Positions 13,679 through 56,976 of a stretch of 58,210 bases of DNA are shown piece by piece. Made by a program: the position numbers and the translations under genes. The notes beneath the pieces are model-generated. The model saw only the letters and a list, made by a program, of their open reading frames with translations, did not search any database and was not told where the DNA came from. Origin of the DNA: Actinocrinis puniceicyclus (GTDB lineage: Bacteria; Actinomycetota; Actinomycetes; Streptomycetales; Catenulisporaceae); assembly GCF_018283645.1 (NCBI RefSeq), contig NZ_JAGSXH010000029.1:1-58210 (forward strand), written 5' to 3'. Position 1 is the first letter of the stretch; each line of letters opens with the position of its first letter.

Positions 13679-13687
13679 GACAGCGGA

Positions 13688-14005: not shown

Positions 14006-14022
14006 GAGGACGAGCAACCGTG

Positions 14023-14476: not shown

Positions 14477-15889
14477 TCATCTGTTCCACCGCCGCCTCGC
14501 ACCGAGCAGGAACCTGACGACGCGGCCGGTGCCCGGGGCGGCGAGCCGGTCCGCGGCCTCGGCGAGAGCGGCGTTCCACGGCCCGTCCGCATACGTCGGG
14601 TAGGGATGGATCGTCGCAGCATACTGTGAGGCGCTCCAGCCGTGGCGCACCGCAGCGGCCAGATGCGCGATCGTCTCCCCGGCGCGCGGAGCCACCACCG
14701 TGGCCCCCACGATCCGACCACGCCGCCCGAGTACGAGCCGGGTGAACCCCTCGGTGCGCCCGTCGGCGACCGCACGGTCCACGCGCTCGTGCTCGAGATC
14801 GCGCACCCGCACGGGCCCGTGCCGTGCGTGTGCCTCCTGTTCGGTCACGCCGACCTGGGCGACCTCCGGGTCTGTGAACGTCACCGACGGCACTGCGTGC
14901 TCGTCGATCCGCCGACGCACGCCCAGCAGCATGGCGCTGACCGCCGTGGCCGCCTGGACCCCTGCCAGGTGGGTGAACGCGGAACTGCCGCTGACATCCC
15001 CGGCGGCGTAGATCCGCCGGTTGCTGGTGCGCAGCCGCGCGTCCACCTGCAGCCCGCCACGCTCGTCGGTCCGGACCCCCGCCGCATTCAGGCCCAGGCC
15101 CTCGATGTTCGCGCGGCGCCCGGTGGTCACCAGCAGGCGGTCGTACGAAAGTACCCCGACGTTCGTATACAGCGCGTCGTGATCGACGCGTTCGGCCTTT
15201 ACGCCGATGAGTACCTCGACTCCCTCGGTGGCCAGACGCTCCGCCAGCACCGCGGCCGCGCGCGGCTCCGCACGCGGCAACAGGCGGTCCATCGCCTCGA
15301 CGATGGTGACCTTCGCACCGAGCCGCGCGAAGGCCTGGCCCAGCTCGCACCCGATCGGCCCGCCGCCGAGCACCACCAGCCGCCCGGGCAGTTCAGTCAG
15401 GTCCCACACGGTATCGCTGGTCAGCGGCCGGGCTTCGGCGAGTCCGGGAATCGGCGGGAGCGCGGGGGAACCGCCGGTGGCGATCAGCGCGTACCGGAAG
15501 CCCACCTCCCGCGCGCCCACCCGGAGGGTGCGCGGGCCGGTGAAGTGAGCCTCGCCGCGGGCGACCTCCACTGCGTCCGTGGCGAGTGCCTCCGCGGAGT
15601 CGTGCGGCTCGATCTGCCTGATGGCCGCTTTCACCCGGGCCATCGCCTTCGCCAGGTCCACCGGCCCGCTCGCGGAAACCAGGCCGAGGTCCCCGGCCTC
15701 ACGCGCGGCCTGAACCTGCGCGGCGGCGTGCAGCAGGGCCTTGCTCGGCACGCATCCGGTCCACAGGCAGTCCCCGCCCAGGCGCCCGCGCTCGGCCAGC
15801 AGCACCCGCGCGCCGAACCGGGCGGCTAGGCGCGCGCCGGTCAGTCCGGCACTGCCGCCGCCGAGCACCACCAGGTCGTAACGATCCAC
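14477..15889 (-). CDS. FAD-dependent pyridine nucleotide-disulfide oxidoreductase (MerA-like)
   Basis: 470 residues: FAD-binding DLVVLGGGSAGL at the N-terminus, redox disulfide GGDCLWTGCVPSK, NAD(P)-binding VVLGGGPIGCELG, and the IYAAGDVSG second FAD motif, then the dimerisation domain. It resembles mercuric reductase/dihydrolipoamide dehydrogenase-like enzymes but lacks the N-terminal HMA domain and the C-terminal Cys pair needed for Hg(II), so mercury reduction is unlikely. The GTG start at 15889 is chosen because the Rossmann motif begins 4-5 residues later and GAAGG lies about 10 nt upstream. Substrate may be a low-molecular-weight disulfide or quinone. Confidence 0.85.
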   Translation of the reverse strand: MDRYDLVVLGGGSAGLTGARLAARFGARVLLAERGRLGGDCLWTGCVPSKALLHAAAQVQAAREAGDLGLVSASGPVDLAKAMARVKAAIRQIEPHDSAEALATDAVEVARGEAHFTGPRTLRVGAREVGFRYALIATGGSPALPPIPGLAEARPLTSDTVWDLTELPGRLVVLGGGPIGCELGQAFARLGAKVTIVEAMDRLLPRAEPRAAAVLAERLATEGVEVLIGVKAERVDHDALYTNVGVLSYDRLLVTTGRRANIEGLGLNAAGVRTDERGGLQVDARLRTSNRRIYAAGDVSGSSAFTHLAGVQAATAVSAMLLGVRRRIDEHAVPSVTFTDPEVAQVGVTEQEAHARHGPVRVRDLEHERVDRAVADGRTEGFTRLVLGRRGRIVGATVVAPRAGETIAHLAAAVRHGWSASQYAATIHPYPTYADGPWNAALAEAADRLAAPGTGRVVRFLLGARRRWNR

Positions 15890-16232
15890 GGATATCCAGC
15901 CTTCCACGCCGGGATAGGACGCGTGGGGAACCCGCCGGGCGGCAAAGTCCTTCCCCCGGGACGAAAAGCCCGCAACTGCGCCCGCCGTGCGCGATGCGCA
16001 TCGGGCGGTGGCGGAATGCTCCGGGGTAGCACCCGGGTTTCCGATGCGATGCGACATCTACGCGCTGCCGCGATCGGAGGCGTATGGCGCACCTGCGCGA
16101 GCGTGCCACGCGGACCCGTCCCGCGCGGCGCGGCAGAGTCGCGGGTACGGCGCCTTCTGGAAGGGTGTACGCGTCGAGCGGGTCAGGGACGCGGCGCAAT
16201 CCGGCCGATAGTCATATCAGGAGGTTGATTCG
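15890..16232. other. Divergent intergenic region between the two oxidoreductase genes
   Basis: 343 bp without a convincing gene. It must hold promoters for both divergent oxidoreductase genes. A strong AGGAGG is seen just before 16233; I found no clear shared operator. Confidence 0.5.
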
Positions 16233-17597
16233 ATGGTCGAGCAGACGGACGTCGTGGTGATCGGCATGGGGCCTGGCGGCGAGCACGTCGCGGGCCGCCT
16301 GGCCGAGTCGGGGCTCGATGTGGTCGGCGTCGAGGCGGAGCTGGTCGGCGGGGAATGCCCGTACTGGGGCTGCGTGCCGAGCAAGATGATGATCCGCGCG
16401 GCGAACCTGCTCGCCGAGGCCCGGCGCGTGCCCGGCATGGCCGGAAGCACGCAGGTGACGCCCGACTGGGGGCCGGTGGCGACCCGGGTGCGCGACGAGG
16501 CCACCGACGACTGGAACGACCAGGTGGCCGTGGACCGGTTCACCGGCACAGGCGGGCGTTTCGTGCGCGGGCGCGCGGTGCTTTCCGGTCCCGGCACGGT
16601 CCGCGTCGCAGAGGCCGAATACACCGCTCGCCGTGGCGTGGTGATCGCCACCGGCACCAGGCCGGCGATCCCGCCGATCCCGGGACTCGCGCAGACCCCG
16701 TTCTGGACGAACCGCGACGCGGTCGCGGCCAAGGAGCCGCCGGCCTCGCTGATCGTGCTCGGCGGCGGGGCGATCGGCCTCGAACTGGCGCAGGTCTTCG
16801 CGCGCTTCGGTACCGCCGTCACCGTCATCGAGGCCCTGGACCACCTCGTGCCGATGGAGGAGCCCGAGGCCGGGGAACTACTCGCCGAAACGCTCGCGGC
16901 CGAGGGACTCACGATCCTGACGGGCGCACGCGCCGCAGGGGTCGAACACCGCGCGGGTACGTTCGCCGTGCGGCTCGAGGACGGCCGGGAGCTGACGGCG
17001 CAGCAACTGCTGGTGGCCACCGGCCGCCGCGTCGATGTCTCCGGGCTCGGCGTCGAGCACGCCGGCCTCGACCCGAAAACCAGGGCACTGACGGTGGACG
17101 GGCAGATGCGCGCGGCCGAGGGGCTGTGGGCGGTGGGCGACGTCACCGGGGTCGGCGCGTTCACGCACGTGGCCATGTACCAGGCGCAGATCGCCATCCG
17201 CGACATCCTCGGCCAGCCGGGGCCGGACGCGGACTACCGGGCGCTGCCGCGCGTCACCTTCACCGACCCGGAGATCGGCGCGGTCGGCCTGAGCGAGCAG
17301 GCCGCCCGGGCCCGCGGGCTGACGGTGCGCACCGGCGTATCGCAGATTCCTTCCTCGGCACGCGGCTGGATCCACAAGGCCGGCAACGCGGGATTCATCA
17401 AACTCGTCGAGGACGCCGAGCGCGGCGTCCTGGTCGGCGCGACCTCGGCAGGACCCGCCGGCGGCGAGGTGCTCTACGGACTCGCGGTCGCCGTTCACGC
17501 GCAGGTGCCGACCGCGCAACTGCGGCACATGATCTACGCCTACCCGACCTTCCACCGCGCCGTGGAAGACGCCTTGGCCGCGCTGAACAGACCGTAG
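16233..17597 (+). CDS. FAD-dependent pyridine nucleotide-disulfide oxidoreductase, second paralogue
   Basis: 454 residues with FAD motif DVVVIGMGPGGEH, redox-active GGECPYWGCVPSK, NAD(P) motif IVLGGGAIGLELA, second FAD motif LWAVGDVTG, and a C-terminal YAYPTFHRAVEDAL whose His-Glu pair is the acid/base of disulfide reductases. The other paralogue (14477) lacks that His, so this one looks like the more typical reductase. AGGAGG lies 8 nt before ATG 16233. Divergent arrangement suggests shared control with the paralogue. Confidence 0.88.
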   Translation: MVEQTDVVVIGMGPGGEHVAGRLAESGLDVVGVEAELVGGECPYWGCVPSKMMIRAANLLAEARRVPGMAGSTQVTPDWGPVATRVRDEATDDWNDQVAVDRFTGTGGRFVRGRAVLSGPGTVRVAEAEYTARRGVVIATGTRPAIPPIPGLAQTPFWTNRDAVAAKEPPASLIVLGGGAIGLELAQVFARFGTAVTVIEALDHLVPMEEPEAGELLAETLAAEGLTILTGARAAGVEHRAGTFAVRLEDGRELTAQQLLVATGRRVDVSGLGVEHAGLDPKTRALTVDGQMRAAEGLWAVGDVTGVGAFTHVAMYQAQIAIRDILGQPGPDADYRALPRVTFTDPEIGAVGLSEQAARARGLTVRTGVSQIPSSARGWIHKAGNAGFIKLVEDAERGVLVGATSAGPAGGEVLYGLAVAVHAQVPTAQLRHMIYAYPTFHRAVEDALAALNRP

Positions 17598-42481: not shown

Positions 42482-42646
42482 ATGCTGGAGGTCTGCCGCG
42501 CCAAGGATGTACCTGTTTACCTCGATAAAGCGGTGCGCGACCTCCTGGCTGAGGGCCGCGCGCTGGGTTCCTGGAAGCGGCCCCTGCTCAGTGGTGATGG
42601 CGCGCTCAGCGGAGCCTCAGCGTTTCGGCCAGAACCAGAGCGGTGA
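42482..42646 (+). pseudogene. Possible gene remnant between the YhaN-type and AAA genes
   Basis: A 54-codon open frame encoding MLEVCRAKDVPVYLDKAVRD and more; the frame is open further upstream. The first half looks like real protein, the second half overlaps the antisense end of the AAA gene. May be the tail of a lost gene. Family not recognised. Confidence 0.3.
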
Positions 42647-43798
42647 GTCGAGCAGGCTCTGCCCGGGCAGCACCGTCTCCCCGTTCACCTTCCGCAACTC
42701 GACCATCTCCACATCCCTGCGCAGTTGCGCCGCCGCGCGGCCGATGGCCTCGATCAGGCCGCCGGCGTGCGAGACCACGATGATCTGGCTGCGCTCCGAC
42801 ACCGCCGCGATGAGCGCGCCCAGCGGCCCGAGCAGGTCTGGATGCAGGCTGGTCTCCGGCTCGTTGAAGACCAGCAGGTCAGCCGGCCGCGGGGATAGTA
42901 GCGCGGCGACGAGCAGCAGGTAGCGAAGTGTGCCGTCGGACAATTCGGCAGCGCCGAGCGGCCGTAGCAGGCCGCGCTGCCACAACTGGAGCGAGAACCG
43001 GCCGTCCGCCTCCACCTCGATCTGCAGACGGCTGCCCGGGAACGCGCCGTCGACCGCCTCTTCCAGTTGCGCCCTCCGGCCGGTCGCGACGATGGTCTGG
43101 AGCGCGGCGGCCAGATCGGCGCCGTCGTGCGCCAGCACCGGCGTGCGCGTGCCGATCTGCGGAGCCCGGGCCGCAGCGTCCGCGTCGGTGCGGAAGTGGT
43201 CGTAGAAACGCCAGGACCGGATCCGGTCCCGGATTCGGAACAACTCCGGGGCGGCTTGCGGGTCGCCGAACTCACTCAGCATGCTGTCGAACGGCTCGAT
43301 CGGATAGGGCTTCGGGGACCACTTCCCGTCGGCTGCGCGGATCTTGACGGCGTTATTGTGCCGCTCGACGAGCGAACTGGCCGGGCGAAGGACCGCACCG
43401 CTCCAGACCGCTTCGGTCTTGATCGCCGGATCCAGGTTGAACTTGGCCGCTTCCGCGTCCCCGCTCGGAATGGGCAACCCCAGGTCGACCGCGTAGCCGA
43501 ACTCGTCACCGCCGAAGCCGAGCCGCAGCCCGATCGGGGCGGTGCGCACCGTGCCCTGGGTCTTGCGGTCCGGCTTGGTGCCCTGCTCCGGTCCGGCCCA
43601 CAGCGTGGAGCGCAGCCCGCCCTCGCGCGCCAGCGCCGCCACCGCCCCGTTGCGCGAGACATCGGCCAACAGCCGCACGGCCCGGTACAGGCTCGACTTG
43701 CCGCTGCCGTTGGCGCCGGTGACGACGGTCAGCCGCCCGACCGGGATGCAAAGGTTGCGCAGGGAGCGGTAGTTCTCCACAGCGAGCGTGGTTATCAC
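42617..43798 (-). CDS. AAA family ATPase (RecF/OLD-like, AAA_21)
   Basis: 393 residues. N-terminal LAVENYRSLRNL and Walker A TGANGSGKSS; signature-like ELSDGTLRYLLL; Walker B region LLVFNEPETSLHP (the Asn-Glu-Pro-Glu form is usual for this group) and a late IIVVSHAG switch. No C-terminal TOPRIM domain, so it is not a complete OLD nuclease; such ATPases often work with a separate effector in defence loci or as stand-alone genes. The GTG at 43798 starts directly before the conserved LAVENYRSL; sequence upstream is not family-like. Divergent from the AbiEii-type pair. Confidence 0.8.
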   Translation of the reverse strand: MITTLAVENYRSLRNLCIPVGRLTVVTGANGSGKSSLYRAVRLLADVSRNGAVAALAREGGLRSTLWAGPEQGTKPDRKTQGTVRTAPIGLRLGFGGDEFGYAVDLGLPIPSGDAEAAKFNLDPAIKTEAVWSGAVLRPASSLVERHNNAVKIRAADGKWSPKPYPIEPFDSMLSEFGDPQAAPELFRIRDRIRSWRFYDHFRTDADAAARAPQIGTRTPVLAHDGADLAAALQTIVATGRRAQLEEAVDGAFPGSRLQIEVEADGRFSLQLWQRGLLRPLGAAELSDGTLRYLLLVAALLSPRPADLLVFNEPETSLHPDLLGPLGALIAAVSERSQIIVVSHAGGLIEAIGRAAAQLRRDVEMVELRKVNGETVLPGQSLLDSPLWFWPKR

Positions 43799-44027
43799 GC
43801 CCTCGACCGTAGGCGAAGATACAGACAGCCGCTCAGCGACCGTCAAACCAGCGGAACCGGCGGCCAACACGCGCCGCGCGCGGACGTGCCGCCACACCTT
43901 CAATCCGACCGTGCTGCTCCATGATCGCCATGACAGCCGGACGCGTCGGCCGCCGAGCGTACCCACGGTTCCCTGCCGCCGACGCAAATCGGTTTGCCCG
44001 GCGCCGGGTATCCGAGATGATCGGTGG

Positions 44028-44693
44028 GTGCACATAACGCTTGCCGGGGACCCGTTGGCGTTCGAGGGCGACTTCGAGACTCATGTGACGGTGCGCGGCG
44101 ACCGCACGGATGTCGACCATCTGGAGCGGTGGGCGGCTGGCGCTGAGCTGAAGCTGACGCTCATCACCCTTGGACGCGGCCGGGTACCGGTGCAGCCGAT
44201 GATCACGCTGCGCGGTTCCGGAACGCTCGGCGCGCAGTACACGGCGGCCGGGGTCGTGGTTGGGCGCCTCGAGACCGCGGGGTTCGAGGTAGCGCGGGTG
44301 AAGATCGAGGCGTCCCCGTGCACGCGCGGCGTGCCTGGCGACGATGAGGCCGCACTGCGTCTGGGCGCCGGATGCTACTTCGAGCACCACGTCAAGCTCC
44401 TGCTCGACGCCGGGTGCGACGTGGCGGCGTTGACGCGGTTGGTGGTCCCGCACGGTGCGCACGTGTCGTGGAACGCGCGGCGCGTGCTCGACCCCGGGCG
44501 GCACGAGCGGTTCGTGACCCAGCGCTGCCATGGGCTCGGGCTGGCGGCAGCGGGCAAGAGCCTGGAGGAATTGTGCACGATGCTGTACGAGTGTGGCTAC
44601 GAGATCGTGTCGGTGGAGCGAGAATTCGTGGTCTTCGACAGCGACGCGAGCCTGGACGCCGGGTGGATCGAGCGGAACGCGATCAGGGCGTGA
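44028..44693 (+). CDS. Protein of unknown function coupled to the AbiEii-type nucleotidyltransferase
   Basis: 221 residues from GTG 44028. No signal or membrane segment. Notable parts are VHITLAGDPLAFEGDFETHV, VARVKIEASP, a His/Cys-containing centre (GAGCYFEHHVKLLLDAGCD) and GYEIVSVEREFVVFDSD. It overlaps the next gene by 4 nt (GTGA), which strongly implies a joint role: cognate antitoxin or substrate-specificity partner are options. No clear ribosome binding site. Family not recognised; the AbiEi-type winged helix expected of a classical antitoxin was not seen. Confidence 0.7.
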   Translation: MHITLAGDPLAFEGDFETHVTVRGDRTDVDHLERWAAGAELKLTLITLGRGRVPVQPMITLRGSGTLGAQYTAAGVVVGRLETAGFEVARVKIEASPCTRGVPGDDEAALRLGAGCYFEHHVKLLLDAGCDVAALTRLVVPHGAHVSWNARRVLDPGRHERFVTQRCHGLGLAAAGKSLEELCTMLYECGYEIVSVEREFVVFDSDASLDAGWIERNAIRA

Positions 44694-46288
44694 GCGACGG
44701 GGCGTGGGACCGGTTCGGTTGGCGCAGCGCACGCGTACCGGGCACTGCGTTGCCCGACCATCAGCGCACGGCGCTGGGCGTGCCGCGCACGCTGCGGACG
44801 ATCTCGGGCACGGACCTGGTGCAGCGGCCGGTGTTCGACCCCGCACTCAAACAGTTCCCGAACGCCTACCGGGCCGGTGACCCGCAGTTCGCCGACGAGC
44901 AATCGGCGACACGTTGGCGCCAGGCACGCACGCGCGCCCTCGATCACGTGCTCGAGGCGATCGCCGACTCGCAGTGGGCCGATCATCTGGTCCTGCGCGG
45001 CAGCGTTCTACTGCGCACGTGGTACGGCCGGGCCGCACGCGAACCGGGCGATCTGGATTTCGTCGTACTGCCCGAGAGTTGGCGGATCGAGGAGCCGCGC
45101 ACCGACGCGATGCTCGAAGCGATCGCGCATGACGCCGAGCTGGCGGGTACCGGCGGCGGGGTGAGGATCTCGGCGGCCGACGCGGTCAGCGACGAGATCT
45201 GGACCTACGACCGGGTTCCCGGACGCCGACTGCTGCTGCCCTGGGACGCTGACGGCGTGCCAGGAGGCTGGGTCCAGCTCGACTTCGTGTTCAACGAGAA
45301 GCTGCCGATCGCCCCGGAGCCGGTCTGCGTAACGGCCGGCTCAGGCCGAGACGGCGCGCTGGTTTTGAGCGCGACTCCGGAGCTTTCGCTGGCCTGGAAG
45401 CTGCTGTGGCTGACCACCGACATGCACCCACAGGGCAAGGACCTTTATGACGCCGTCCTGCTCGCCGAGAACACCGGTGTGCGCTACGAAGTGCTGCGCG
45501 ACGTATTCCGGGACGCGAATGACGGCTACTTCCAGGCCCGTGCGCTACGCCCCTGGCACATCAGTACCCTAAGAACGGAATGGCAGCACTTCCACGACGA
45601 GCACCCAGGCCAGCCCGACAGCGACAGCGAGTACGTCCGGCGACTGGCGGCAGCCCTCGAACCCACCTTCGCAATGTTCGACGGACGTCCGGTCACCGAG
45701 TACGAGGCGCACACCGCGTGGCTCGGACCGCATGTCGAGAGATACCGGCACCGCCTCATCGAGCGGGACATGAACGCGATCCAAGAGGAGATGGCCGCGG
45801 CCCGCATCCCACCGTTGTCCGCCATCGTGATCACCCGGGAACTTCTCGGTCGCGACGATGTCAGCCTGGATGACGCGCGGCGCCTCGTCGTGAACCATCC
45901 CGCTTGGGCGCAGCGCCTCGCGTTCCGCTACGGCGACGGCGGGGAACTCGCCGCAGGGCTTGAGGCGATGGGCGTGGACCTGACCATCGAAGGCCGGCCG
46001 GCCTCGCCGGGGACCCGCCTGGCCCGCCGGGTACGCAGGGACTTCCGTCGATCCGGCGCCGCGCCCGAGGTCCTGCGCCTGCTCGCCGCGCTGCCCGCGG
46101 GATCAGTCGACCCAGCGCTGGGCAGCGAACGGATTCTCGCCGCCGTCGTGCTGCCGGCCGCCGGAGACATCAAGGAACTGCACCGCTGCCTCGCCCTCGC
46201 CCGCACCGATCGGCATGACCTACTCAAGGCCTCGGGCCTTGCCGGCCCCGATTGGCCACAGCGGCTGGATGCCGAACTCGGGCCATGA
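44690..46288 (+). CDS. AbiEii/AbiGii-type nucleotidyltransferase toxin-family protein
   Basis: 532 residues. The nucleotidyltransferase core lies at about 85-240: LVLRGSVLLRTWYG followed by REPGDLDFVV, the GS...DxD pattern of the AbiEii family, and then VQLDFVFNEK as the third acidic site; LAWKLLWLTTDMHPQGKDLYD is the usual family segment after it. The C-terminal 250 residues are helical and longer than in typical AbiEii (about 300). Known AbiEii proteins act as toxins, some by modifying tRNA. GTG start overlaps the upstream partner's stop. Confidence 0.8.
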   Translation: MSDGAWDRFGWRSARVPGTALPDHQRTALGVPRTLRTISGTDLVQRPVFDPALKQFPNAYRAGDPQFADEQSATRWRQARTRALDHVLEAIADSQWADHLVLRGSVLLRTWYGRAAREPGDLDFVVLPESWRIEEPRTDAMLEAIAHDAELAGTGGGVRISAADAVSDEIWTYDRVPGRRLLLPWDADGVPGGWVQLDFVFNEKLPIAPEPVCVTAGSGRDGALVLSATPELSLAWKLLWLTTDMHPQGKDLYDAVLLAENTGVRYEVLRDVFRDANDGYFQARALRPWHISTLRTEWQHFHDEHPGQPDSDSEYVRRLAAALEPTFAMFDGRPVTEYEAHTAWLGPHVERYRHRLIERDMNAIQEEMAAARIPPLSAIVITRELLGRDDVSLDDARRLVVNHPAWAQRLAFRYGDGGELAAGLEAMGVDLTIEGRPASPGTRLARRVRRDFRRSGAAPEVLRLLAALPAGSVDPALGSERILAAVVLPAAGDIKELHRCLALARTDRHDLLKASGLAGPDWPQRLDAELGP

Positions 46289-47314: not shown

Positions 47315-47539
47315 GTGACCGACCCCACGCAGCCCCCGTCCCGTGAGCAGATCCGCGACCATCTGAGCGTCAAGCTCAACAACATGCTGCGGCGCATGAG
47401 CATGTACGGGGGCGAAGGCGCGTTGTTGATGGTGTTCGACCTTCTCTTCCTCACTGAAGGACTCGGCACCACTTCCCCGAGGCTCAGTATTCGAACCTGT
47501 ACCTGATCATCGGCAACTCGGTGCAGCACCCGCCAGCCT
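47315..47539 (+). pseudogene. Frameshifted small gene, family unknown
   Basis: GTG 47315 opens a coding-looking stretch (SREQIRDHLSVKLNNMLRRM, then GGEGALLMVFDLLFLTEG). Near 47460-47472 the plausible protein continues in another frame (HFPEAQYSNLYLIIGNSVQH) and runs into the end of the next gene. This looks like a gene broken by one frameshift and cut at its 3' end. The preceding 46950-47310 has only weak coding character. Confidence 0.4.
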
Positions 47540-49008
47540 CAGGCGTTGAGCTCGGTGATGAGCTGGTGAAGTTGGGCCGCGTCGAGCGGGATCCGGTGGG
47601 CGAGGCGGTTGCGCGACTGCCAGAGGACACGCAGCCTCCTACGCTCAACCTCGTTAAGGGCGATGTGGCCGTTGAGGTTTGCTCCCCACATAGAGCCGAG
47701 CTCCATGGCGGTCAGCGTTCGGCCGGTGCCGCTCCCCGTGGCAGGATCGGTTGGAGCGCCGAAAGAGCGCGGCCCATACTTCTCGTCCAACCGCGCGAGG
47801 GGGATCCGGGCGCGCCGGCGGACGACGTCGGTGAAGTCCTCTCGGACTTCGTCCAGCCGGGGAAGCAGCGCGTGGTGCTGAGCGAGCCAGACCCTGGTGC
47901 TGATGGTGCGCGGGTCCGCCAGGTCGTAAGCGGGGTGCCAGCGCACGCGCCCATCCCAGCTGTCGATGAGTCCGCCGCTCCAAGCAAGCAGAGCGAGTTG
48001 GGCTGGCCGGTTCCCGCCCGCGGGGCAGTCGCCCCGGTCCGGTAGAACGGCGTCGCCCTCGGCGGTTTTGGACACGGCGCGCCTCAGCGCTTCAAGCAGC
48101 GTCTCGGGATTTCCGTCCCAACCGGCCAACTCGGCGGCCACCTCCAGGAAGGGGCCGCTGAGCTCGGTGACAGTCGCCTGAACCACTGCCTCCAGCAGTT
48201 GCTGACGGCCCACCATCCCCGTCGTGGGCGGCCGGTTGACGGCGACGACCGTGGCTGTGTCGAGTCTGCCGACGGCACCCCACCACCAATGCACGGCGAT
48301 TTCGTCGCGGGCGAGCTGGTCCGGCAGGTCGGCGGGTAGATCCTCCGCGGCTGCGACGATGAGGGCGCGTGGCCGGCGCAGCGGCGGGAGACCTGCTTCC
48401 TTGGCCGTGGCCACCAATTGCCGCAGGAAGCTGACAGTTGCGGAGGGAGTCTTCTCCCGCCATGCCTCGATGACGATCGGACGCGTCTCGGTGCGGCCGC
48501 CTGCCCCTCCGGCGAGCCAGGCGAGCACTCCGTCTGTCGAAGAACCGGCAGCCCGGGTTCCGTGGCCGGGTGGGACCAGCGCCCCGGCCGGTCCTGTGAG
48601 CTGTCCGGCAAGGCGGTCCAATAGTTCCGCAAGGGATTCGGCGGGCGTGACGGGGCGTGCGGGTGCCGGAGCGCGTACCGCAGTGCCGTTGACGACTCCA
48701 AAGCCTGACATGCCGTCGTCGTAGTCGAGCAGAGGCGCCAGGCCAGACCAGTGTGGGGCGGCCGGCCGCGCCGTCACCGCACAGGCGGGGACACCGTCAC
48801 GGACCGGGGCGTCGGCAGACAGCAGAATGAAGTCGCCGACCTCGTGCAAGAGCTCGGAGAGCAGCGCGTCGGCGACACAGTCCGGTCCCAGGGTCTGCGC
48901 TCGCGGCAGCAGCAAATAGCAACTGCGCCCTGCTCGCAGGTCCTCGTGAATCCGCCGGAGCCACCCTCGGACCCCAGGAAGCGTGGTCAGCGGGACGCTG
49001 GTGGTCAT
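47539..49008 (-). CDS. Protein with C-terminal HEPN-type Rx4H motif, partner of the STAND ATPase
   Basis: 489 residues, second gene of a two-gene operon; its ATG overlaps the ATPase stop (ATGA). N-terminal half has alternating strands and helices (CYLLLPRAQTLG, FILLSADAP, PIVIEAW, ALIVAAAEDLP). The C-terminal about 100 residues are helical, with ELGSMWGANLN, then LRVLWQSRNRLAHRIPLD: Arg466-x4-His471 fits the catalytic Rx4H motif of HEPN RNases, close to the Swt1-like group. HEPN domains are common RNA-cleaving effectors of toxin-antitoxin and antiviral systems. Role as effector of the ATPase is inference; the domain call itself rests on motif and helix pattern. Confidence 0.7.
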   Translation of the reverse strand: MTTSVPLTTLPGVRGWLRRIHEDLRAGRSCYLLLPRAQTLGPDCVADALLSELLHEVGDFILLSADAPVRDGVPACAVTARPAAPHWSGLAPLLDYDDGMSGFGVVNGTAVRAPAPARPVTPAESLAELLDRLAGQLTGPAGALVPPGHGTRAAGSSTDGVLAWLAGGAGGRTETRPIVIEAWREKTPSATVSFLRQLVATAKEAGLPPLRRPRALIVAAAEDLPADLPDQLARDEIAVHWWWGAVGRLDTATVVAVNRPPTTGMVGRQQLLEAVVQATVTELSGPFLEVAAELAGWDGNPETLLEALRRAVSKTAEGDAVLPDRGDCPAGGNRPAQLALLAWSGGLIDSWDGRVRWHPAYDLADPRTISTRVWLAQHHALLPRLDEVREDFTDVVRRRARIPLARLDEKYGPRSFGAPTDPATGSGTGRTLTAMELGSMWGANLNGHIALNEVERRRLRVLWQSRNRLAHRIPLDAAQLHQLITELNA

Positions 49009-52000
49009 CCCCGGGTGCTTCGCCCGACGGTGAGCGCCCGGAAGGTGATCGAGTCCAGGGCGTAGCCGCCCTCGCTGTCGTCGAGAACCCCGTGGTCGGC
49101 GAGCCTGTCCATGAGCCGACGCACCTCGTCCAGTTCCAGGCCGGTGACGGAGGCGATGTCGGCGTAGCTGCAGCCCTCACCCGGCTCGACGTACTCGGTC
49201 CAGGCGGACAACAGCTCGATCACGTCCTGATCGAGCTCCACCCGGGCGAGGTGGTCGGCGGCGTTGCCCGGTTGCTGGAAGAAGGAGGCGACCTGCTCCA
49301 GCGCGGCCTCCAGCGCGGCGCCGCCGCGGGTGACGGAATGGATCGTGCGCTCCACCACGTTCGGCCAGCCTCCCGTGGCGTGCGCCAGCCTGCGCCGCTT
49401 GTCCAAAGTGTCGAACGGGCATTCCGGCCAGGCGTTCAGGCTGTCGGCGTTCCATCGCTCGGGCCGCAGCACGCGCGTGACCCGTTCGTCCTCGAAGCCC
49501 CGCCAAGTCATCGGGTCAATGACGAGGACCGCGGCGCGGTGCACTGCGCCCGGGTTGTGAGACGTGTGGACGTGCAGCTTCTCGACGCACTCCCGGAGCA
49601 ACTGGATGCCGCACATGCGAAGTTCGGCGATAACGACGCTGGGCTGCCTGCTGCGCGTGTCCTGTGTCAGCACACGAACGACATCGTCCGACCCGGTGGC
49701 GCGCACGGTCAGACCGCGGGCTTCGGCGTACGACGTGATGGCGAGGCGCAGCAGTTCCGGACCGTGCGCCTTGGTCAGGCACACCACGGTCACGCCCGGG
49801 CTGGTTGCCTCGTACAGTTGCTGCTCGGTCAGCGGGCTGTATAGCGCGACGCCGTTGGACTGGTTGTTGCCAACCAACCGCCTGGAGAAGCGCGGGTTGT
49901 AGTCATACGGAAGGCTGAACTCGGTCTGCCGGAGCTCCAGTTCAAGATCCTCGCGGGTGCCGAGCATGCGCACCACGTTGGGGCTACGCACCGCGTAGTT
50001 GCGGCGGTCGGTCTCCACCAGCAGACCGAGGCCCACCATCTCGTCCAGGTAGATCTTCACATCACTGGCGGTGAGCTTGTTGAATCCGTCGGGCCAGTGC
50101 CGCTTCGCCTCGGTCAGCAGGTCGTCGGCGTCGTAACCGTGCTGGAAGCGGTCGGCGCGGCTGCGCAGCGCGATCACCAGCGCGAGCACCCGGTATCGGT
50201 CCTCCAGATTGATCGTAATGCGCAGGCGGTCGGCGATGCTGCGGTGGACCTGTGCCGAGTCGGCGACTGCCCGGATGTCCTCCTCGGTGACCACGATCGG
50301 CCACTGCGCCGAACCGAGCGGCTTCTCACGCAACGCCGCGATCAGTCGATCACAGAAGATCTGCACCAGGCACGCCTGGTAGTTGGTCGCGGCCAGCACC
50401 CGCCACACCAGGCTGGGGTGCTCGAAGCGGTAGCCGAACGCGGCCATGGGCGCCACCACGAGCCGCTGGGCCTCGATGGGCTTGAGCGGGCCTATGCGCA
50501 TCTCTGCGCCGTGGGCGAGCGGCACGTTGGAAAGGTGGCTGAACCGCTGCACCTGGTGCAGACCGGCGAAGACGATCTTGAACCGTCGATCGGTGGCGTC
50601 CATCAGCCCCTTAAGGCGAGCGACGTTGGCGAAGGTGACCGCGCCGCCCGGGCCGCGGACCGCTTTCGAGTCGGCCATCAGGAAGGCGTCCGCCTCATCG
50701 GCCAAGACAAGGACGCGGCGCTCGCGGTTCTGCTCGAGCCACTGCCGCACCTGCTCCAACAGGACGTCGGCGCCCAGCTTGGAGGACACGCGCGGGTTGA
50801 GGACGCCGACCCGCTTGAGCTCGGAACCGAGCACGGACCAAATGCGGTCGGCCGGTTCGGCCTCCCCTACTCCTCGTGCCTTCAGGTCGAGGTAGACCGC
50901 CTTACGGTCCGGTGTCACCGGGAAGCTGGCCTCGACCTTGCGCAGCAGGGCGGATTTGCCGAGCTGGCGTCCCCCATAGAGGAACAGCGCGCCGAGCGGG
51001 TCGACGACGGTCGCCATCTCCTCGTTGCGGCCGTAGAAGACCTCGGGCGGCACCAGGCCGGCCACGAACGGGGTGTACGGCGTGAAGGCGGTCCACGGCA
51101 GCGTCACCCGCTGGGTCGCGCGGAACGAGCGGGGCGAACGGGCCGCTATCCAACCGAACACGGCCGGGTCTACGACCAGGGCCTGCTGCGGCGAGGTCTG
51201 CGCGTGCGCGGCCATCGCCCGCCGCCCGGCCAAACCCATCGGATACAGGTAAAGGATGATGCAGGCGTCGGACTCGTTGGGCAGCAGTTCCAGTGGGCTG
51301 CGTCCGCGCTGCTCGTCGGCGACCACGAGGACCGTGTAGGTCGTCGCTCCGGACCCGAGGGCGGCGACGTAGCCGGGAGCGGCCTCACTGGCCGTCAGCT
51401 GGGCGGTCAAACGGAGGACACCGCGCACCTGCTGGTGGTTGTCGCGGACGGGCGCGCGCCCCTCCAAGCCCAGGATGCGCAGGACGGTGGGGACATGCTT
51501 CTGCCACTCCGACCCACGTCTGGTCGGCACGCAGAGCGCGTCCCATGCGTCGAGTCCGCTTCGCGAGCCCTCAGTCAGCGGCTGCCCGTCGGCGTACCGC
51601 TCCGCCCACGGCCGGGCCGAATAACCGTGCTGTCCGGCCTTCGTCAGGGGCGCCGCTTCCAGATCGGCCATGAACCGCGCCAACTCGTCGCCCCAGTCCA
51701 GGCCAGTCCAGTCGGGCAGGCTGCTGCCCTCCCGCAACAGCGCGAGGCACTCCTCGGCGCTGACCGTGTCACCGGCCTCGAGCAGCTCGGTAATCCGCCT
51801 GCGGTCATGCTCGGATACCACCAGCGACTCCAGCCGCTCGCGCAGTCGCTTCACATACGACTCGAGCCTCAGATTCAGCTCGATCTCAAACCGGTGGATC
51901 TCCTCGACCACGTCGCGGAACGCGCCGTCGGGCGTGGGCTGTTCGAGGTGCTCCAGCCTGCCGACCAGTTCGCGCTCGGTCTGGTCGTCGAGGCCCTGGG

Positions 52001-54752
52001 TGCGAAGTTCCGCGAGCAGGCCGGCGGTCGCCCGGTGGGCGTCCCGATGCAGACCGGACCAGCGCGCCCATTCCGCGTCGCGCGAGGCGCGCCAGTCGGC
52101 GGACAGCGCCCGGATGCCTGCGTGAGCCGCGGGCACCAGAGCCTGCTCCAAGGCTTCCACCAGACGGTCGGCGAGGTGGAGGTCGCCGCGGGCGGCATAA
52201 CGGGTGACGACGGAACGGATGTCGACCGGCTCAAGCAGCGAGGCGACGGCCTCGACGAAGCCGGGTTCGTTCGGCCGCGGCGAACCGTCGGGCGAACGCG
52301 GCAGATCGAGCGCTGCCAGCAGCGCCTCCGCGCCCGGTGCGGTGTCCAGTTGGCCGTCCCCTTCGGCGACCTCCAGCACCCGCCGGGGAAATGGCGCGCT
52401 GTCCTCGCCCTGGAGCCAAGCCCGCAGCCGGAGCAGCGTCGCGCCCTCGGGCCCCAGCGGCGCGGGCTCGTCCCGGACCTGCTGAACGGCGTGGCGCAGG
52501 GCGGTCGCGGTATCGCCGAGTTCCTCCGCGCCCGGCACGGTCAGCGCGCGCGCCTGGGAGACAAGAGTGGCGACCTCTTCGATCCGGTGAAGCAGGGACC
52601 GCTTGGCCTTGGCCTCGATTGGCTCCTTGGCCTGCTTGGGCGTCCGGATCGCCGCGTCGGCCTCCTCGATGATGCGTTCGGCGGCGTCCCGCTTGGCGAA
52701 GATCCCCCACGCTTCATCGAGCACTGAAGCGTCCGCCCTGCCGCTCGCCCACGCGCGCACGGCTGCCAGAGCCCTGCCGAGCGGCTGGTCCGCGACGATC
52801 AACCGCTTCTGCACCTGTGTGGCGCGAGCGTAGCTCGTCTTCTTCAGTTCCAGGCTCTTCTGCAGTTCATCCGCCGCCTGGACGAGCCCGGCCTTGCTGA
52901 GAATCGGCTCCGCGTCACGGCTCGGGTTGAGAATCGCCGGATCGAAGCGCTGGTAGCGGCTCAGCACATCGACCGCGCATTTGAGCAGATGACCCCAGGG
53001 GGCAGGCACCGAGGCCGCCGGGTCCGCCTGCAACAGCAGGTCATTCGGCCAACCCGCGACCAGGCCGGCCCGCAGCGACGCGACCATAGCCAGTACCAGC
53101 GCCGCGCGGTCGCCGTGCAGGACCTCCGGGTCGGGCACGAACCGCGTCATCACCGTGGTGGCCTCTTCGACGAGGTCACAGGAAAATGCTGCGTCAGCGA
53201 ACGCGAGGCACTCGGCCCGGTGCGCCGGCTCAGCCGAGGCCAGGGTCAGCCAGTACGCCTCCTGGAAACGGCCGACGGCTATCAGCCGCTCGACGGGCGA
53301 GGCCTCAGTCGCACCGTCAGAGCTCTGCCAGGCCAGGTAAGCAGGCTTCACGCGAGCCTGTTCTTCCTCCGGCTGAGCCGTGAGGGTGTCCGGTGCGCGG
53401 GTGTCCGCAGCGGGCTCGATGAGCACAGCCGGGGCGGGGTCGTTGGCGGCCTGCGATACGGTGACCGTGGAGGCTGGCTGCTCCTCCTCGGGCAGTGCAG
53501 TCGACAGAGCGGGCGCAATCTCGTAAACGGCCCGAGTGGGTGGACAGACCTCCTCGGTGGGCGCCTCTTCGAGTTCTTCGATCCGCGGCTCGTCGACCGC
53601 CGGCGGCCCCGCGACGGTGCGTCCATGGTCGGCAGCCGACTCCTCGGCGGGCGCGGCTGTCAGCGGTCGCTGCAGCGCGGTTCCATCCAGCAGGGCGATC
53701 TGATCGTCGAGTTGCCGTAACGCGCCTCTCAGCTGCTCGGTGTAGGAGGCCCCGCCGCCGTCCTGACTGGCCTGCTCGACGAGTTTCAGCAGCGCCTCCC
53801 GCTGAGCCTTCAGCGAATTGAGCTGCGTGGCTCGGGCGGCCGCTTCTTGGTCCCTGGCTCTGAGAGCCTCGATCAGGGCGTCCAGTCTCGTGAAATCGTC
53901 GTCCGCGCTCCAGGCTCCGCCGGCCGTTGCGATTCGATCCGCCAACGCGGTCCGCTCGGCCGACCAGGCGGCCACCTCCTCCAAGGCGCCCTCGCCCGGC
54001 CGGAGCCCTGTGCGGACCCGGTCGGCGGTCTCGCTGAGGTGATCGGCGATCAAACTCGCACGCTCGCGCACCGAGCGCGCCCGATCGGCGAGGGCGCCCC
54101 AGTCAGGGTTCACGGATTCGCCCTCTGCCACCTGTTCCTCCCCCTCGTTCAAGTAACTGTTTTCGTCTACCTTGCCACCCACGTCCGACTCAGCCGGTCC
54201 CATCGCGTCGGATTCGCCGAGGGCAGCGTCATGGCAGCCAGCCTCGCCCTGGTCACAGCGGCACGGCCCCCCGGATCGGGCCGCAGCCTCGAGCAGGCGC
54301 TCCCAGTTCCCTGAGACCAGGTCAGCTGTTGCACCGTCCTCGGACTGCAGTGTGTGGAGTGTGAGGTGGGCGAGTACCGGCTCCAGGAACCCGATCATCG
54401 CCTCCAGTTCCTCGACATCGGGGTCGGCGCACGTCTCCGCCGAGTAGCCACCGCAGTGATCGAGCTGAAACATTGCGAACTGTGTCGCGGCGTCGGCGAC
54501 CTCTTTGAGTTCCTTGGCGGTAGCGCGGTTCAGCCAGACTCGGACGGTCAGAAGTTCCCGCTGCCCGATCCGTAGCGGCCCGTTCCGGCGAGCTCCCGCA
54601 ACCCGCGCCCAGTAGGGCAGCGGTCCAGGCAGAAGAATCAGCTTCCGAAGCTCGGCGTCTGCCAGACCGGTAATCCACGCCTTGATGGCTCCGCCGGATA
54701 ATGCCATGAAGGGATTGTGCCGGATCGCCAAAGCTCCGGACAGCCGTTCCAT
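49005..54752 (-). CDS. 1915-residue STAND-like ATPase with long helical N-terminus and winged-helix C-terminus
   Basis: Residues 1-170 form a globular start; 200-380 are coiled-coil-like; 380-490 Pro/Ala/Glu-rich linker; 490-1110 a long helical repeat region; about 1115-1230 a beta-rich domain. The ATPase domain follows: FYGRNEEM, Walker A GGRQLGKS (1260-1267), Walker B VLVLADEADAF (Asp1352, Glu1353). Then helical and winged-helix-like parts (about 1480-1580 and 1830-1905). The YGRNEE-Walker A spacing is like STAND/novel-STAND ATPases, signal-sensing switches used in antiviral defence. ATG 54752 is the first start; an in-frame stop precedes it, and AAAGGAG lies 21 nt upstream, so an internal start (ATG at 54707) is possible. 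Translationally coupled to the HEPN-motif gene. Confidence 0.75.
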   Translation of the reverse strand: MERLSGALAIRHNPFMALSGGAIKAWITGLADAELRKLILLPGPLPYWARVAGARRNGPLRIGQRELLTVRVWLNRATAKELKEVADAATQFAMFQLDHCGGYSAETCADPDVEELEAMIGFLEPVLAHLTLHTLQSEDGATADLVSGNWERLLEAAARSGGPCRCDQGEAGCHDAALGESDAMGPAESDVGGKVDENSYLNEGEEQVAEGESVNPDWGALADRARSVRERASLIADHLSETADRVRTGLRPGEGALEEVAAWSAERTALADRIATAGGAWSADDDFTRLDALIEALRARDQEAAARATQLNSLKAQREALLKLVEQASQDGGGASYTEQLRGALRQLDDQIALLDGTALQRPLTAAPAEESAADHGRTVAGPPAVDEPRIEELEEAPTEEVCPPTRAVYEIAPALSTALPEEEQPASTVTVSQAANDPAPAVLIEPAADTRAPDTLTAQPEEEQARVKPAYLAWQSSDGATEASPVERLIAVGRFQEAYWLTLASAEPAHRAECLAFADAAFSCDLVEEATTVMTRFVPDPEVLHGDRAALVLAMVASLRAGLVAGWPNDLLLQADPAASVPAPWGHLLKCAVDVLSRYQRFDPAILNPSRDAEPILSKAGLVQAADELQKSLELKKTSYARATQVQKRLIVADQPLGRALAAVRAWASGRADASVLDEAWGIFAKRDAAERIIEEADAAIRTPKQAKEPIEAKAKRSLLHRIEEVATLVSQARALTVPGAEELGDTATALRHAVQQVRDEPAPLGPEGATLLRLRAWLQGEDSAPFPRRVLEVAEGDGQLDTAPGAEALLAALDLPRSPDGSPRPNEPGFVEAVASLLEPVDIRSVVTRYAARGDLHLADRLVEALEQALVPAAHAGIRALSADWRASRDAEWARWSGLHRDAHRATAGLLAELRTQGLDDQTERELVGRLEHLEQPTPDGAFRDVVEEIHRFEIELNLRLESYVKRLRERLESLVVSEHDRRRITELLEAGDTVSAEECLALLREGSSLPDWTGLDWGDELARFMADLEAAPLTKAGQHGYSARPWAERYADGQPLTEGSRSGLDAWDALCVPTRRGSEWQKHVPTVLRILGLEGRAPVRDNHQQVRGVLRLTAQLTASEAAPGYVAALGSGATTYTVLVVADEQRGRSPLELLPNESDACIILYLYPMGLAGRRAMAAHAQTSPQQALVVDPAVFGWIAARSPRSFRATQRVTLPWTAFTPYTPFVAGLVPPEVFYGRNEEMATVVDPLGALFLYGGRQLGKSALLRKVEASFPVTPDRKAVYLDLKARGVGEAEPADRIWSVLGSELKRVGVLNPRVSSKLGADVLLEQVRQWLEQNRERRVLVLADEADAFLMADSKAVRGPGGAVTFANVARLKGLMDATDRRFKIVFAGLHQVQRFSHLSNVPLAHGAEMRIGPLKPIEAQRLVVAPMAAFGYRFEHPSLVWRVLAATNYQACLVQIFCDRLIAALREKPLGSAQWPIVVTEEDIRAVADSAQVHRSIADRLRITINLEDRYRVLALVIALRSRADRFQHGYDADDLLTEAKRHWPDGFNKLTASDVKIYLDEMVGLGLLVETDRRNYAVRSPNVVRMLGTREDLELELRQTEFSLPYDYNPRFSRRLVGNNQSNGVALYSPLTEQQLYEATSPGVTVVCLTKAHGPELLRLAITSYAEARGLTVRATGSDDVVRVLTQDTRSRQPSVVIAELRMCGIQLLRECVEKLHVHTSHNPGAVHRAAVLVIDPMTWRGFEDERVTRVLRPERWNADSLNAWPECPFDTLDKRRRLAHATGGWPNVVERTIHSVTRGGAALEAALEQVASFFQQPGNAADHLARVELDQDVIELLSAWTEYVEPGEGCSYADIASVTGLELDEVRRLMDRLADHGVLDDSEGGYALDSITFRALTVGRSTRG

Positions 54753-54974
54753 GCATCAAATCCACAATGGGTGCTCCTTTAGATGGACACGGGAGCAGTC
54801 CGCGACCCTCCGCACGCATCGGATCGCAGAAGCCGACATCGGCCCGGGAGCGATCCGTTGCGGGCCCCTCTCGGCTCGACCACGAAGAACGCTGATCACC
54901 GAGCGTGAGTCGCTCGGTCGACACTTCACAACGCACTCGCCCCATTCCCGATGAAGAAACAGGAAAGGTTTGTC

Positions 54975-55310
54975 ATGACGCAGGTTCTGCTCGCCGTCCG
55001 CCACGACGGCACCGGCCCGAACGCTCCGCCGGAAGAGCTTCAGCAGTCGATCGCCGACATGGAGGCGTTCGACACCAGAGCGAGAACTCCGGCGCGTTCG
55101 TGTTCCGCGCCCACCTGCATGGCGTGGAGACGGCAACCGCGGTGTGCAAGTCCAGCGACGACTACAGATCATCGACGGCTCGTACAGCGCGGACAAGGAG
55201 ACTCTCGCTGGCCTCTGGATCATCAGCGCCGCAGACGAGGACGCGGCTCTCGAATGGGCCAGGCTGGCCGCGTGCGTGGGGAGAGATCGTGCGCCGTCTG
55301 ACTCGGCGCT
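54975..55310 (+). pseudogene. YCII-family (DGPF) protein, multiply frameshifted
   Basis: MTQVLLAVRHDGTG through SIADMEAFDTR starts in one frame; ENSGAFVFRAHLHGVETATA continues in a second frame from about 55082; QIIDGSYSADKETLAGLWII continues in a third from about 55165; and GEIVRRL at the end fits the second frame again. Joined, they give a normal YCII-related protein of about 110 residues. AGGAAAGG precedes ATG 54975. These proteins often act beside ECF sigma factors, none of which is near. At least two single-base indels make it inactive. Confidence 0.7.
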
Positions 55311-55329
55311 GGATCGCCCCTTCAAGTGG

Positions 55330-55590
55330 CAGAGGTTCGGTAGTCGGCCGCCGTCGCCGACGCGGCCGCCTGGGCGGCGGACTTCAGCAGGGCCTTGGCG
55401 CGGGGCAGGAAGACCTCCCCCGCCGCGGTGTGCACGGCACCCTGCGGGGTGCGGTCGAGCAGGCGCACGCCGAGTTCCCGCTCCAGGTGGCGGATCGGCG
55501 ACTCAGCGACGGCTGGGCGACCTGCAGTTCGGCGGCGGCGCGCCCGAAATGGCGGTGGGCCTCCTCGTTCGTGACGGACCAGGCCGCGGC
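55330..55590 (-). pseudogene. LysR-family regulator, N-terminal DNA-binding fragment, frameshifted
   Basis: On the minus strand FGRAAAELQVAQPSLSR is in one frame and IRHLERELGVRLLDRTP plus HTAAGEVFLPRAKALL in the next, with a one-base loss around 55491-55505. Together they form the winged helix-turn-helix and linker helix of a LysR regulator. The ligand-binding domain is missing and the fragment abuts the polymorphic toxin remnant, which suggests a deletion joint near 55570. Confidence 0.65.
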
Positions 55591-55928
55591 GGTGGTCACG
55601 TTCGGCGCGGCGGAGGCTGCCGAGGCGCTGATCGTCGAGGGCGCAAAGAAGCTCATTAACGCTCTGGTTAATCAGCTGGAGCAGCACATTCTCGGCGAGG
55701 TGACCGGTAAGGCGGTCGCGCCGCTGGAGTCGGTCGTGCAGCGGGCGGTCGGCGGCCTGGTGTTCGAGGGCGTGGCCTCAGCGGGGCGGGGCGGTCGGTT
55801 CCGGGTTCGGGATCGTGCCCGGCGACCTGCTCGGCTATGCCCAGCGGCTGGCCGGACATGCGGACGAGGTCGCCGGTCACGCGCGCGCGTTTGGGACGGC
55901 GCTGGCAGGGGTGGACTTCGGTGAATAA
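55567..55928 (+). pseudogene. 5'-truncated, frameshifted polymorphic-toxin scaffold gene
   Basis: From about 55567 a coding frame gives VVTFGAAEAAEALIVEGAKK and LEQHILGEVTGKAVAPLESV; near 55778-55795, in a G-rich stretch, the sensible frame shifts to FGIVPGDLLGYAQRLAGHAD and ends GVDFGE at TAA 55926-55928. The helical content with HAD...AF spacing resembles the WXG100-like N-parts of actinobacterial secreted toxins. The 5' end is missing, replaced by the antisense LysR fragment. Its stop overlaps the GTG of the toxin gene. Confidence 0.55.
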
Positions 55929-56604
55929 TCCGGTCGTCGCGGCGCTGCGGCAGGCTGCCGAGCGAGTTGGCAAGGCGCTAAGCGAGGACGCCGGCCGGGC
56001 GATCGAGAAGATGTATCGCGACGCGGGACGACGTACCGAGGGAGTGGTCAAGCGGGTCACCGAAGCCGACGCCGAGCATGCACGTAAGCTGCTGCAGATC
56101 GCCGACCAGATCGGGGCCAAGGACACAGCCCTGGCCGCGACGCGGGACATCGAGCAGGGCGCGGCACTGAACACCGAACGCGCGGTGCTGCGAAAACAGT
56201 TCGAGCACGCGCTCGGGCCGCTTGGCACCGGGGGCGTGGACGAGGGCGCGAAGACGTTCAACCCGGCCGAACGGTGCATCGCCGACCTGTTGGCGGGCGA
56301 GGGCCGGCGGGTGACCGCACAAACCGAGTCTGCTGTAGACGGGGTGCGCACCGCCGACGCCATGGTCGACGGGGCTCCCACCGAGTTCAAGTCACTCTCG
56401 CCCGGTGCCGCTCCGAACGCGGTAAAGAACGCCCTGAACTCAGCGAAGGGACAGGCCGGGGACGCGGTGCTGGACGCGCGCGGCAGCGGTTTGACCGCGA
56501 GTGGCGCGCAGGAGGGTCTGGTGCGGTTCCTGCGCAATAATCCGCCCGGCCGGATGTCGTCGATCCGTATCATCGGCGACGAGTACGAGATCAACTGGCC
56601 GTAG
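55921..56604 (+). CDS. Polymorphic/CDI-type toxin with PD-(D/E)xK-like nuclease domain
   Basis: 227 residues from GTG 55921. Helical N-part (about 1-85) and a C-terminal toxin domain (about 115-227) with IADLLAGEGRRV, TADAMVDGAPTEFKSLSPGA, VLDARGSGLT and MSSIRIIGDEYEI. The D...ExK pattern (Asp, then EFK) fits the PD-(D/E)xK nuclease core seen in CdiA C-terminal toxins, which cut DNA or tRNA. No signal peptide; secretion would need the broken upstream part, so the gene may now be an orphan. The immunity gene follows 9 nt later. Confidence 0.75.
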   Translation: MNNPVVAALRQAAERVGKALSEDAGRAIEKMYRDAGRRTEGVVKRVTEADAEHARKLLQIADQIGAKDTALAATRDIEQGAALNTERAVLRKQFEHALGPLGTGGVDEGAKTFNPAERCIADLLAGEGRRVTAQTESAVDGVRTADAMVDGAPTEFKSLSPGAAPNAVKNALNSAKGQAGDAVLDARGSGLTASGAQEGLVRFLRNNPPGRMSSIRIIGDEYEINWP

Positions 56605-56613
56605 GAGACGACG

Positions 56614-56976
56614 ATGAGCGCCTATCACCAGATCTTCGTCCGCACGGCCGAGCCGCCCGAGACCCTGCTGGCCGATCTGACCGAGCTCTGCGACGCGCCA
56701 CTGAAAAGGATCGACGACGGGCCGGTGGACTATGCCTCGCACACCCCCACCGCGTTCATCGACGTCGAGCTTCACCACGACTTCGACCCCGACCGCGACA
56801 TGCCCTTCGACCAGTACCCCTTCCTGGTCACCATCCGCGACCGGGAACGCGACCAGGAACGCCAGCAGCACGCCGCGCAAGAAGTATTCGACGCGCTGGC
56901 CGCCACCGGGCGCTACCGGCTGATGCTTGTACACGACCTGCAGCGAATGCTCGCGACCTACCCGCCAGCCGCCTGA
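56614..56976 (+). CDS. Probable immunity protein of the adjacent toxin
   Basis: 120-residue soluble, acidic protein (many Asp/Glu, for example DVELHHDFDPDRDMPFDQYP). TAGGAGA overlaps the toxin stop, and ATG 56614 lies 9 nt after it, the usual layout of toxin then immunity gene. Intact. I do not recognise a named immunity family; the assignment rests on position, size and charge. Confidence 0.65.
   Translation: MSAYHQIFVRTAEPPETLLADLTELCDAPLKRIDDGPVDYASHTPTAFIDVELHHDFDPDRDMPFDQYPFLVTIRDRERDQERQQHAAQEVFDALAATGRYRLMLVHDLQRMLATYPPAA

Follow-up and report, generated by a model that had tools for sequence, protein, structure and literature searches.

Among the multi-gene defence systems described in bacteria, the closest to the locus studied here is nSTAND2, a mobile two-gene counter-invader system predicted by Kaur et al. 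2021 (PMC8195603, section 15, Fig 6C). In nSTAND2, one STAND protein is active, whereas the other carries eroded nucleotide motifs together with a variable effector, which is mostly GT4 or HEPN (PMC8195603). The two proteins have been proposed to build a toroidal hetero-multimer, both present a conserved arginine finger, and their sequence family lies near CR-ATPase, Dap3 and RNA12 (PMC8195603). In the literature searched, no experimental study of nSTAND2 systems was found, and only PMC8195603 describes them. Here we analyze two adjacent minus-strand genes, encoding a giant STAND-type ATPase and a smaller HEPN-motif protein, in a 58,210-nucleotide stretch of contig NZ_JAGSXH010000029.1 (hereafter the window) from Actinocrinis puniceicyclus, a soil actinomycete with a genome of 6.77 Mb in 430 contigs. 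In its organisation the pair appears to fit the nSTAND2 template, the likeness being drawn from the published description and not from sequence comparison. We consider it reasonably probable that the pair constitutes a self-contained two-gene immune module of this predicted kind, an ATP-dependent sensor complex that would unleash an RNase upon phage infection.

As in nSTAND2, the genes form an adjacent, mobile two-gene operon with a STAND module in both proteins; the large protein has Walker motifs and the small one is devoid of Walker A, and the latter seems to join an inactive STAND domain to a HEPN-like domain, as judged from its motif and from weak HEPN_Swt1 matches. The active partner of the window pair is, however, a giant (about 1900-2000 amino acids, aa) with a fast-evolving N-terminus and a probable second, degenerate STAND domain at its C-terminus, features that are unmentioned for nSTAND2, and no nSTAND2 model appeared in Pfam scans of the pair proteins. 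In Avs proteins the effector is N-terminal on the same chain and the TPR-like sensor repeats are C-terminal. The window pair would share with them the use of a STAND ATPase as infection switch, but its HEPN-like domain is encoded by a separate gene and neither protein has a PADLOC Avs match. An initial annotation of the window had stated that the pair corresponds to no known Avs layout, and this stands, but it overlooked the fit to the already predicted nSTAND2 (PMC8195603). The HEPN-DUF499 ATPase of BREX-related (Hma) systems (PMC12839542, PMC3710099) also couples a Swt1-like HEPN to an ORC/STAND ATPase; there, however, the HEPN is fused N-terminally to the active ATPase and accompanied by a methylase and a helicase, whereas the HEPN-like domain of the window pair belongs to a protein other than the active ATPase, the one with the inactive STAND, and methylase and helicase are not constant neighbours of window-type pairs. 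Similarly, a degenerate STAND/ORC domain without Walker motifs partners an ATPase system in the inactive STAND (iSTAND) protein BrxB and in the MoxR-vWA iSTAND proteins, but these sit in larger multi-gene systems, the partner genes of which are not constant here. Finally, the pPIWI-RE/DinG/REase systems (PMC3702460) recall two distant relatives of the window ATPase, in genomes G007 (pPIWI-RE and a DinG-type remnant) and G415 (exonuclease/DinG/RecQ-like), although no PIWI or DinG gene lies beside the window pair.

The two genes, protein lengths, ATGA junction and motifs given by the initial annotation were recovered exactly, and the pair can be described as follows (AF2, AlphaFold2):

49005-54752, minus strand: large gene, 1915 aa, giant STAND-type ATPase, predicted sensor/switch (open reading frame, ORF; AAA_22 E 3.7e-6; 18 relatives aligned)
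53298-54752, minus strand: N-terminal region, residues 1-485, candidate sensor/adaptor (fastest-evolving, lowest identity in block table)
51213-53297, minus strand: conserved, largely helical region, residues 486-1180 (AF2 secondary structure from residue 716, alignment)
49833-51212, minus strand: active STAND/ORC ATPase core and winged-helix-like part, residues 1181-1640 (AAA_22, ATPase_2, Foldseek)
50952-50975, minus strand: Walker A GGRQLGKS, residues 1260-1267 (identical in 17 members)
50688-50711, minus strand: Walker B LVLADEAD, residues 1348-1355 (motif reading)
49008-49832, minus strand: probable second, degenerate STAND and C-terminal winged helix, residues 1641-1915 (secondary structure, TGGWP motif, alignment A6)
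49005-49008, minus strand: ATGA stop/start overlap of large and small genes (sequence reading)
47539-49008, minus strand: small gene, 489 aa, degenerate STAND/ORC-type domain and C-terminal HEPN-like domain, predicted effector subunit (ORF, AF2 model, 18 relatives aligned)
48250-49008, minus strand: inactive STAND/ORC-like (iSTAND) domain, residues 1-253, without Walker A (VIA-align Z 9-10)
47959-48216, minus strand: putative helical/winged helix-turn-helix-like linker, residues ~265-350 (AF2 helices 265-294, 301-316 and 336-341, low predicted local distance difference test score, pLDDT)
47542-47913, minus strand: HEPN-like (Swt1-like) domain, residues 366-489 (AF2 helices, PF18731 HEPN_Swt1 matches)
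47596-47613, minus strand: RNRLAH, Rx4H motif, residues 466-471 of 489 (R, N, L and H invariant in 18 aligned relatives)

The small gene lies downstream of the large ATPase gene and overlaps it, the stop codon TGA of the latter and the start codon ATG of the former sharing ATGA at the junction (...GGGGATGACCACC). The pair is more than a chance arrangement, since many Streptomycetales carry relatives of full length. For the large protein, a contig scan of genomes located six of these in Streptomyces and Kitasatospora (56-74% identity), and related-genome searches yielded two further ones within the family; in the source genome the large gene is single copy. Small-protein matches occur in 13 of the 197 genomes of the order, one of the 13 being weak. 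A small-protein match in genome G106 (E 8e-4) was too weak and was left uncounted. With E values allowed up to 1, neither protein matches a PADLOC family and the small one is also outside every Pfam family; genuine NCBIfam matches are likewise lacking for the small protein. AAA_22 is the only Pfam family for the large protein, with a weak E value of 3.7e-6.

The analysis supports an almost strict co-occurrence and a co-evolution of the two genes. Adjacent, same-strand pairs in which both genes are homologous by sequence were found at 19 loci in the Actinomycetota (the window, L004-L009, L025, L026, L028-L033, L035, L037, L044 and L104; L024, in genome G022, is the same locus as L006), and over 16 loci the evolutionary distances among the large proteins are correlated with those among the small ones (r=0.97), with 0/10000 permutations reaching as high a value. 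Rare co-occurrence had been set beforehand by the initial annotation as the observation that would count against its proposal, an objection that fails in view of the 19 adjacent pairs and the distance correlation of 0.97. Only in G140 does the small gene clearly occur with no ATPase gene, and there it has decayed to a fragment interrupted by an internal stop codon; a genome of another class (G231) keeps the pair together with RNRLAH, and one copy of the pair is carried by a 927-kb Streptomyces plasmid. Both genes are under purifying selection, which is relaxed chiefly in the N-terminus of the large protein. No conserved third gene was found beyond the pair, except for the common chromosomal flanks at the fabG/tldD insertion site described below; the large-protein pattern had no match in viral contigs, nor the small protein in phage records.

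The assignment of the large protein to the STAND/ORC-type ATPases, which agrees with the initial annotation, is supported by profiles for AAA_22 in 18/18 and for ATPase_2 in 11/18 of its members, and by a Foldseek search with the model of residues 716-1915, which retrieves RuvB, ORC and plant NLR resistosomes (prob 1.0). The ATPase core (residues 1181-1640) is the best-conserved part, GGRQLGKS and LxLADEAD being present in all close relatives, and its pN/pS ratio is 0.17-0.23 versus 0.63-0.70 in residues 1-485. Such fast N-terminal evolution would fit a sensor or adaptor, or a mere linker. In the AF2 model, strands alternate with helices along residues 1641-1915 (pLDDT mostly 52-84), a region that contains a TGGWP motif and probably forms a second, degenerate STAND domain. 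A similarity between this C-terminal region and the N-terminus of the small protein was also sought, and the hhalign comparison was not significant. The alignments reveal invariant arginines (R1403 in the large and R248 in the small protein), which might correspond to the arginine finger of nSTAND2.

The small protein had been presented simply as a HEPN-motif protein, which is correct for the motif but misses an N-terminal degenerate STAND/ORC domain (residues 1-253). Structure comparison of the small-protein model, which covered these residues, assigns them an ORC/Cdc6/TnsC/CED-4/Dark fold (VIA-align, Z 9-10), with the top rows nearly all from that clade and TnsC and MuB among the nearest folds. 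Walker A (GxxxxGK[ST]) was found in 0/16 small-protein members. Given an ORC-type AAA+ fold in which no member has Walker A, the small protein can be read as an inactive STAND module that bears a HEPN-like effector at its C-terminus. The Rx4H motif itself proved real: R466, N467, L469 and H471 are invariant near the C-terminus in 18/18 relatives of an otherwise variable protein (mean column identity about 40%), and RNxL[A/S]H, likewise invariant across the 18, has the form that defines HEPN motifs (Rx4-6H with a polar residue after R). By comparison, R[NDH]xx[AS]H falls within the last 60 residues of 5/1241 control ORFs. The C-terminal domain matches PF18731 HEPN_Swt1 in 5/18 members (best E 0.0046), and in L044 the match lies exactly over the motif (E 0.021). 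The sole score shown is 15.6 bits versus a curated cut-off of 27.5 and no match seen reaches the Pfam cut-off, so that membership of PF18731 itself is not established. Divergent HEPN families often score below curated cut-offs. Alignment with hhalign to Swt1-HEPN domains from related genomes superimposes the same motif at low probability, and the AF2 model places helices around it (366-399, 437-445, 453-470 and 477-488). A DUF4145-type HEPN identity was rejected for lack of similarity. Altogether, the motif, the helix layout and the weak Swt1-HEPN profile matches make the evidence for a C-terminal HEPN domain good but not conclusive.

A predicted RNase is not the only role conceivable for such a domain. 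A non-cutting HEPN-like domain could bind nucleic acid and serve, with the winged-helix and degenerate STAND parts, as the sensor, leaving killing or interference to the ATPase or to other factors. It is true that some HEPN domains are non-catalytic (PMC3710099), that inactive STAND domains have been proposed as nucleic-acid receptors (PMC8195603) and that other relatives of the ATPase adjoin nucleases and helicases, but non-catalytic HEPN domains often lose R/H (PMC3710099), while here all 18 relatives retain both residues of the catalytic motif, which recur in other classes. Hence, we regard this possibility as unlikely.

The genomic context points, indirectly, to immunity, the neighbourhoods of the pair being rich in defence genes. 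Within 10 kb of 16 copies, leaving out five fabG/tldD copies, the 134 neighbour proteins matched 102 PADLOC families (at 1e-15), versus 8 for 134 control proteins drawn at 18 arbitrary positions of genomes in the same set; these counts overstate the number of events, because one protein can match several models, and the gene caller was simple, but the contrast is still large. The neighbour families include AbiEii, Wadjet JetA, type I/II methylases, GajB, DpdF and pPIWI-RE, and the 8 control families include generic mads, AriA and PD-T4-6 models. In the window, two genes with full-length domains lie downstream of the pair:

44372-46288, plus strand: AbiEii-type toxin gene (PF08843 E 3.9e-19)
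42617-44035, minus strand: AAA_21/OLD-like ATPase gene (PF13304 E 8.3e-27)

These two genes depart from the initial description of nearly every small neighbouring gene as broken, which does apply to a LysR-like fragment on the upstream side (named, like the genes at and around the insertion site below, by sequence reading) and to a CdiA_C-type toxin gene seemingly split over two frames. The latter lies within 54905-56976, with PF18451 (1.9e-14) in the ORF at 55837-56604 and an upstream part that seems to be continued in another frame; the next gene, of 120 aa, possibly confers immunity to it. Elsewhere, the plasmid copy (NZ_CP023408.1, 26-63 kb; L056) sits in a defence island made up of a DUF5682/AAA/VWA set, an N6-methylase, the pair, a sigma-70-annotated large protein, a helicase and DISARM drmB.

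In five Streptomyces (L026, L028, L029, L032 and L033) the pair lies between FabG-like/FabI-like genes and a TldD-like gene, a site that is empty in 14/15 other genomes (L083-L097 except L086), with about 120-280 bp between tblastn matches. At base level, the fabG-side flank in L028 and L029 is conserved up to a CCTACAG-like sequence, beyond which there is a cassette with only two genes. In L104 (G644), a two-gene island at 8403-14409 comprises exactly the ATPase and HEPN-motif genes, with a GC content of 0.47-0.51 between flanks of 0.61-0.70. The two-gene insertions, the empty sites and the low-GC island suggest that the pair is mobile as a self-contained unit. The occurrence of five copies at one fixed position of the chromosome, next to fatty-acid genes, and of TnsC and MuB among the nearest folds, might suggest a role outside defence, in the regulation of development or of mobile-element transposition (as an ORC/TnsC/MuB-like loader); against the patchy distribution of the pair, its two-gene mobility, its defence-rich neighbourhoods and the lack of a transposase with the fabG/tldD cassette, we consider such a role very unlikely.

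In the remaining genome (L086, G026), an XRE/DUF397 plus PIN-type cassette occupies the fabG/tldD site instead. The PIN-type gene there, together with the position of the HEPN gene downstream of, and overlapping, the ATPase gene and the frequency of HEPN domains among toxins (PMC3710099), could be accommodated by toxin-antitoxin-like control, in which a constitutively toxic HEPN RNase would be restrained by the giant ATPase and freed when the latter is damaged or titrated by phage products, with no ATP-driven activation. The decay of the one clear ATPase-less small gene (G140) would also be expected in such a scheme, but it is a single case. Furthermore, Walker A and B are strictly conserved, the giant protein is far above antitoxin size and the STAND-type half of the small protein suits co-assembly, all of which makes this type of control improbable.

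For the immune module of the nSTAND2 kind that we favour, it seems reasonable to postulate the following course of events. The giant protein would act as an ATP-dependent switch, its variable N-terminus and/or its degenerate C-terminal STAND part sensing an invader signal, possibly foreign nucleic acid. The active STAND ATPase and the inactive STAND half of the small protein might then assemble into a ring-like hetero-complex, and this assembly would switch on the HEPN domain at the C-terminus of the small protein, so that host and/or phage RNA would be cleaved through R466 and H471. Cleavage of RNA would stop the infection, probably via growth arrest or cell suicide, as an abortive-infection response. 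Several observations weigh against this proposal. The pair is present in a minority of genomes (13/197 with any small-protein match), a distribution that fits defence but also any accessory gene, and in five Streptomyces it occupies a fixed housekeeping site and not a defence island. The ATPase relatives of G007 and G415 have other neighbours and no HEPN partner. As for the HEPN-like domain, its profile-profile alignment with Swt1 HEPN spans 33-39 columns at low probability, no HEPN chain was retrieved from the PDB with A7, the profile of the C-terminal domain, and the domain, which lies beyond the residues 1-253 covered by structure comparison, is without match to a solved HEPN structure. Finally, the AF2 models are weak, having been built on 7 sequences with mean pLDDT of 55 and 51.

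The more distant relatives of the ATPase reveal a broader picture of its partners. In the class of G272, four ATPase relatives are followed by an overlapping gene ending in Rx4H (RNNVSH, RNNVSH, RNAVVH and RNHLAH), and among these the G644 partner is homologous by profile. The partners in G272, G596 and G696 have no detectable homology by hidden Markov model and were kept outside the 19 pairs; they resemble the small protein only in where they lie, in their overlap, in the Rx4H motif and, weakly, over 33 N-terminal residues. Four-gene operons at L105 (G696, 5643-15949), L103 and L046 encode an FHA-domain protein, a RyR-domain protein, the giant ATPase and a protein of ~430 aa that carries Rx4H at its C-terminus, and may represent a kinase/phospho-signalling variant, with one weak Kdo-kinase match in L046. 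At L036 (G007, 2-13860), a distant giant ATPase (5061-11144) is directly upstream of a pPIWI-RE gene (PF13032, 4.4e-66) and is itself preceded by a DEAD/RecQ-like helicase that retains a DinG-type remnant at its C-terminus and by an uncharacterized 750-aa protein, an arrangement that is possibly a four-gene pPIWI-RE variant. At L045 (G415, 1650-16999), the ATPase relative is followed by a ~1950-aa exonuclease/DinG/RecQ-like fusion and is divergent from Wadjet-type DUF2397/DUF2398 genes. The G007 and G415 arrangements raise the possibility that the ATPase serves as a general switch whose partners can be exchanged, although two cases are no proof. As a tentative extension, about which we retain more doubt than confidence, the giant ATPase might be the common switch of an unnamed actinobacterial immune family, with the N-terminus as a diversifying sensor and an effector swapped by lineage: mostly iSTAND-HEPN, elsewhere pPIWI-RE with a DinG/RecQ-like helicase or an exonuclease-DinG-RecQ protein, and with FHA and RyR proteins added in the class of G272.

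If the proposed module is confirmed, these loci would provide concrete, portable examples of nSTAND2, a system so far predicted and apparently never tested, in culturable Streptomyces, and the two-gene insertions and empty sites offer natural presence/absence comparisons. The question would then be whether an active STAND protein can fire an inactive STAND protein bearing an RNase, which would amount to a bacterial equivalent of the two-component NLR or apoptosome assemblies.

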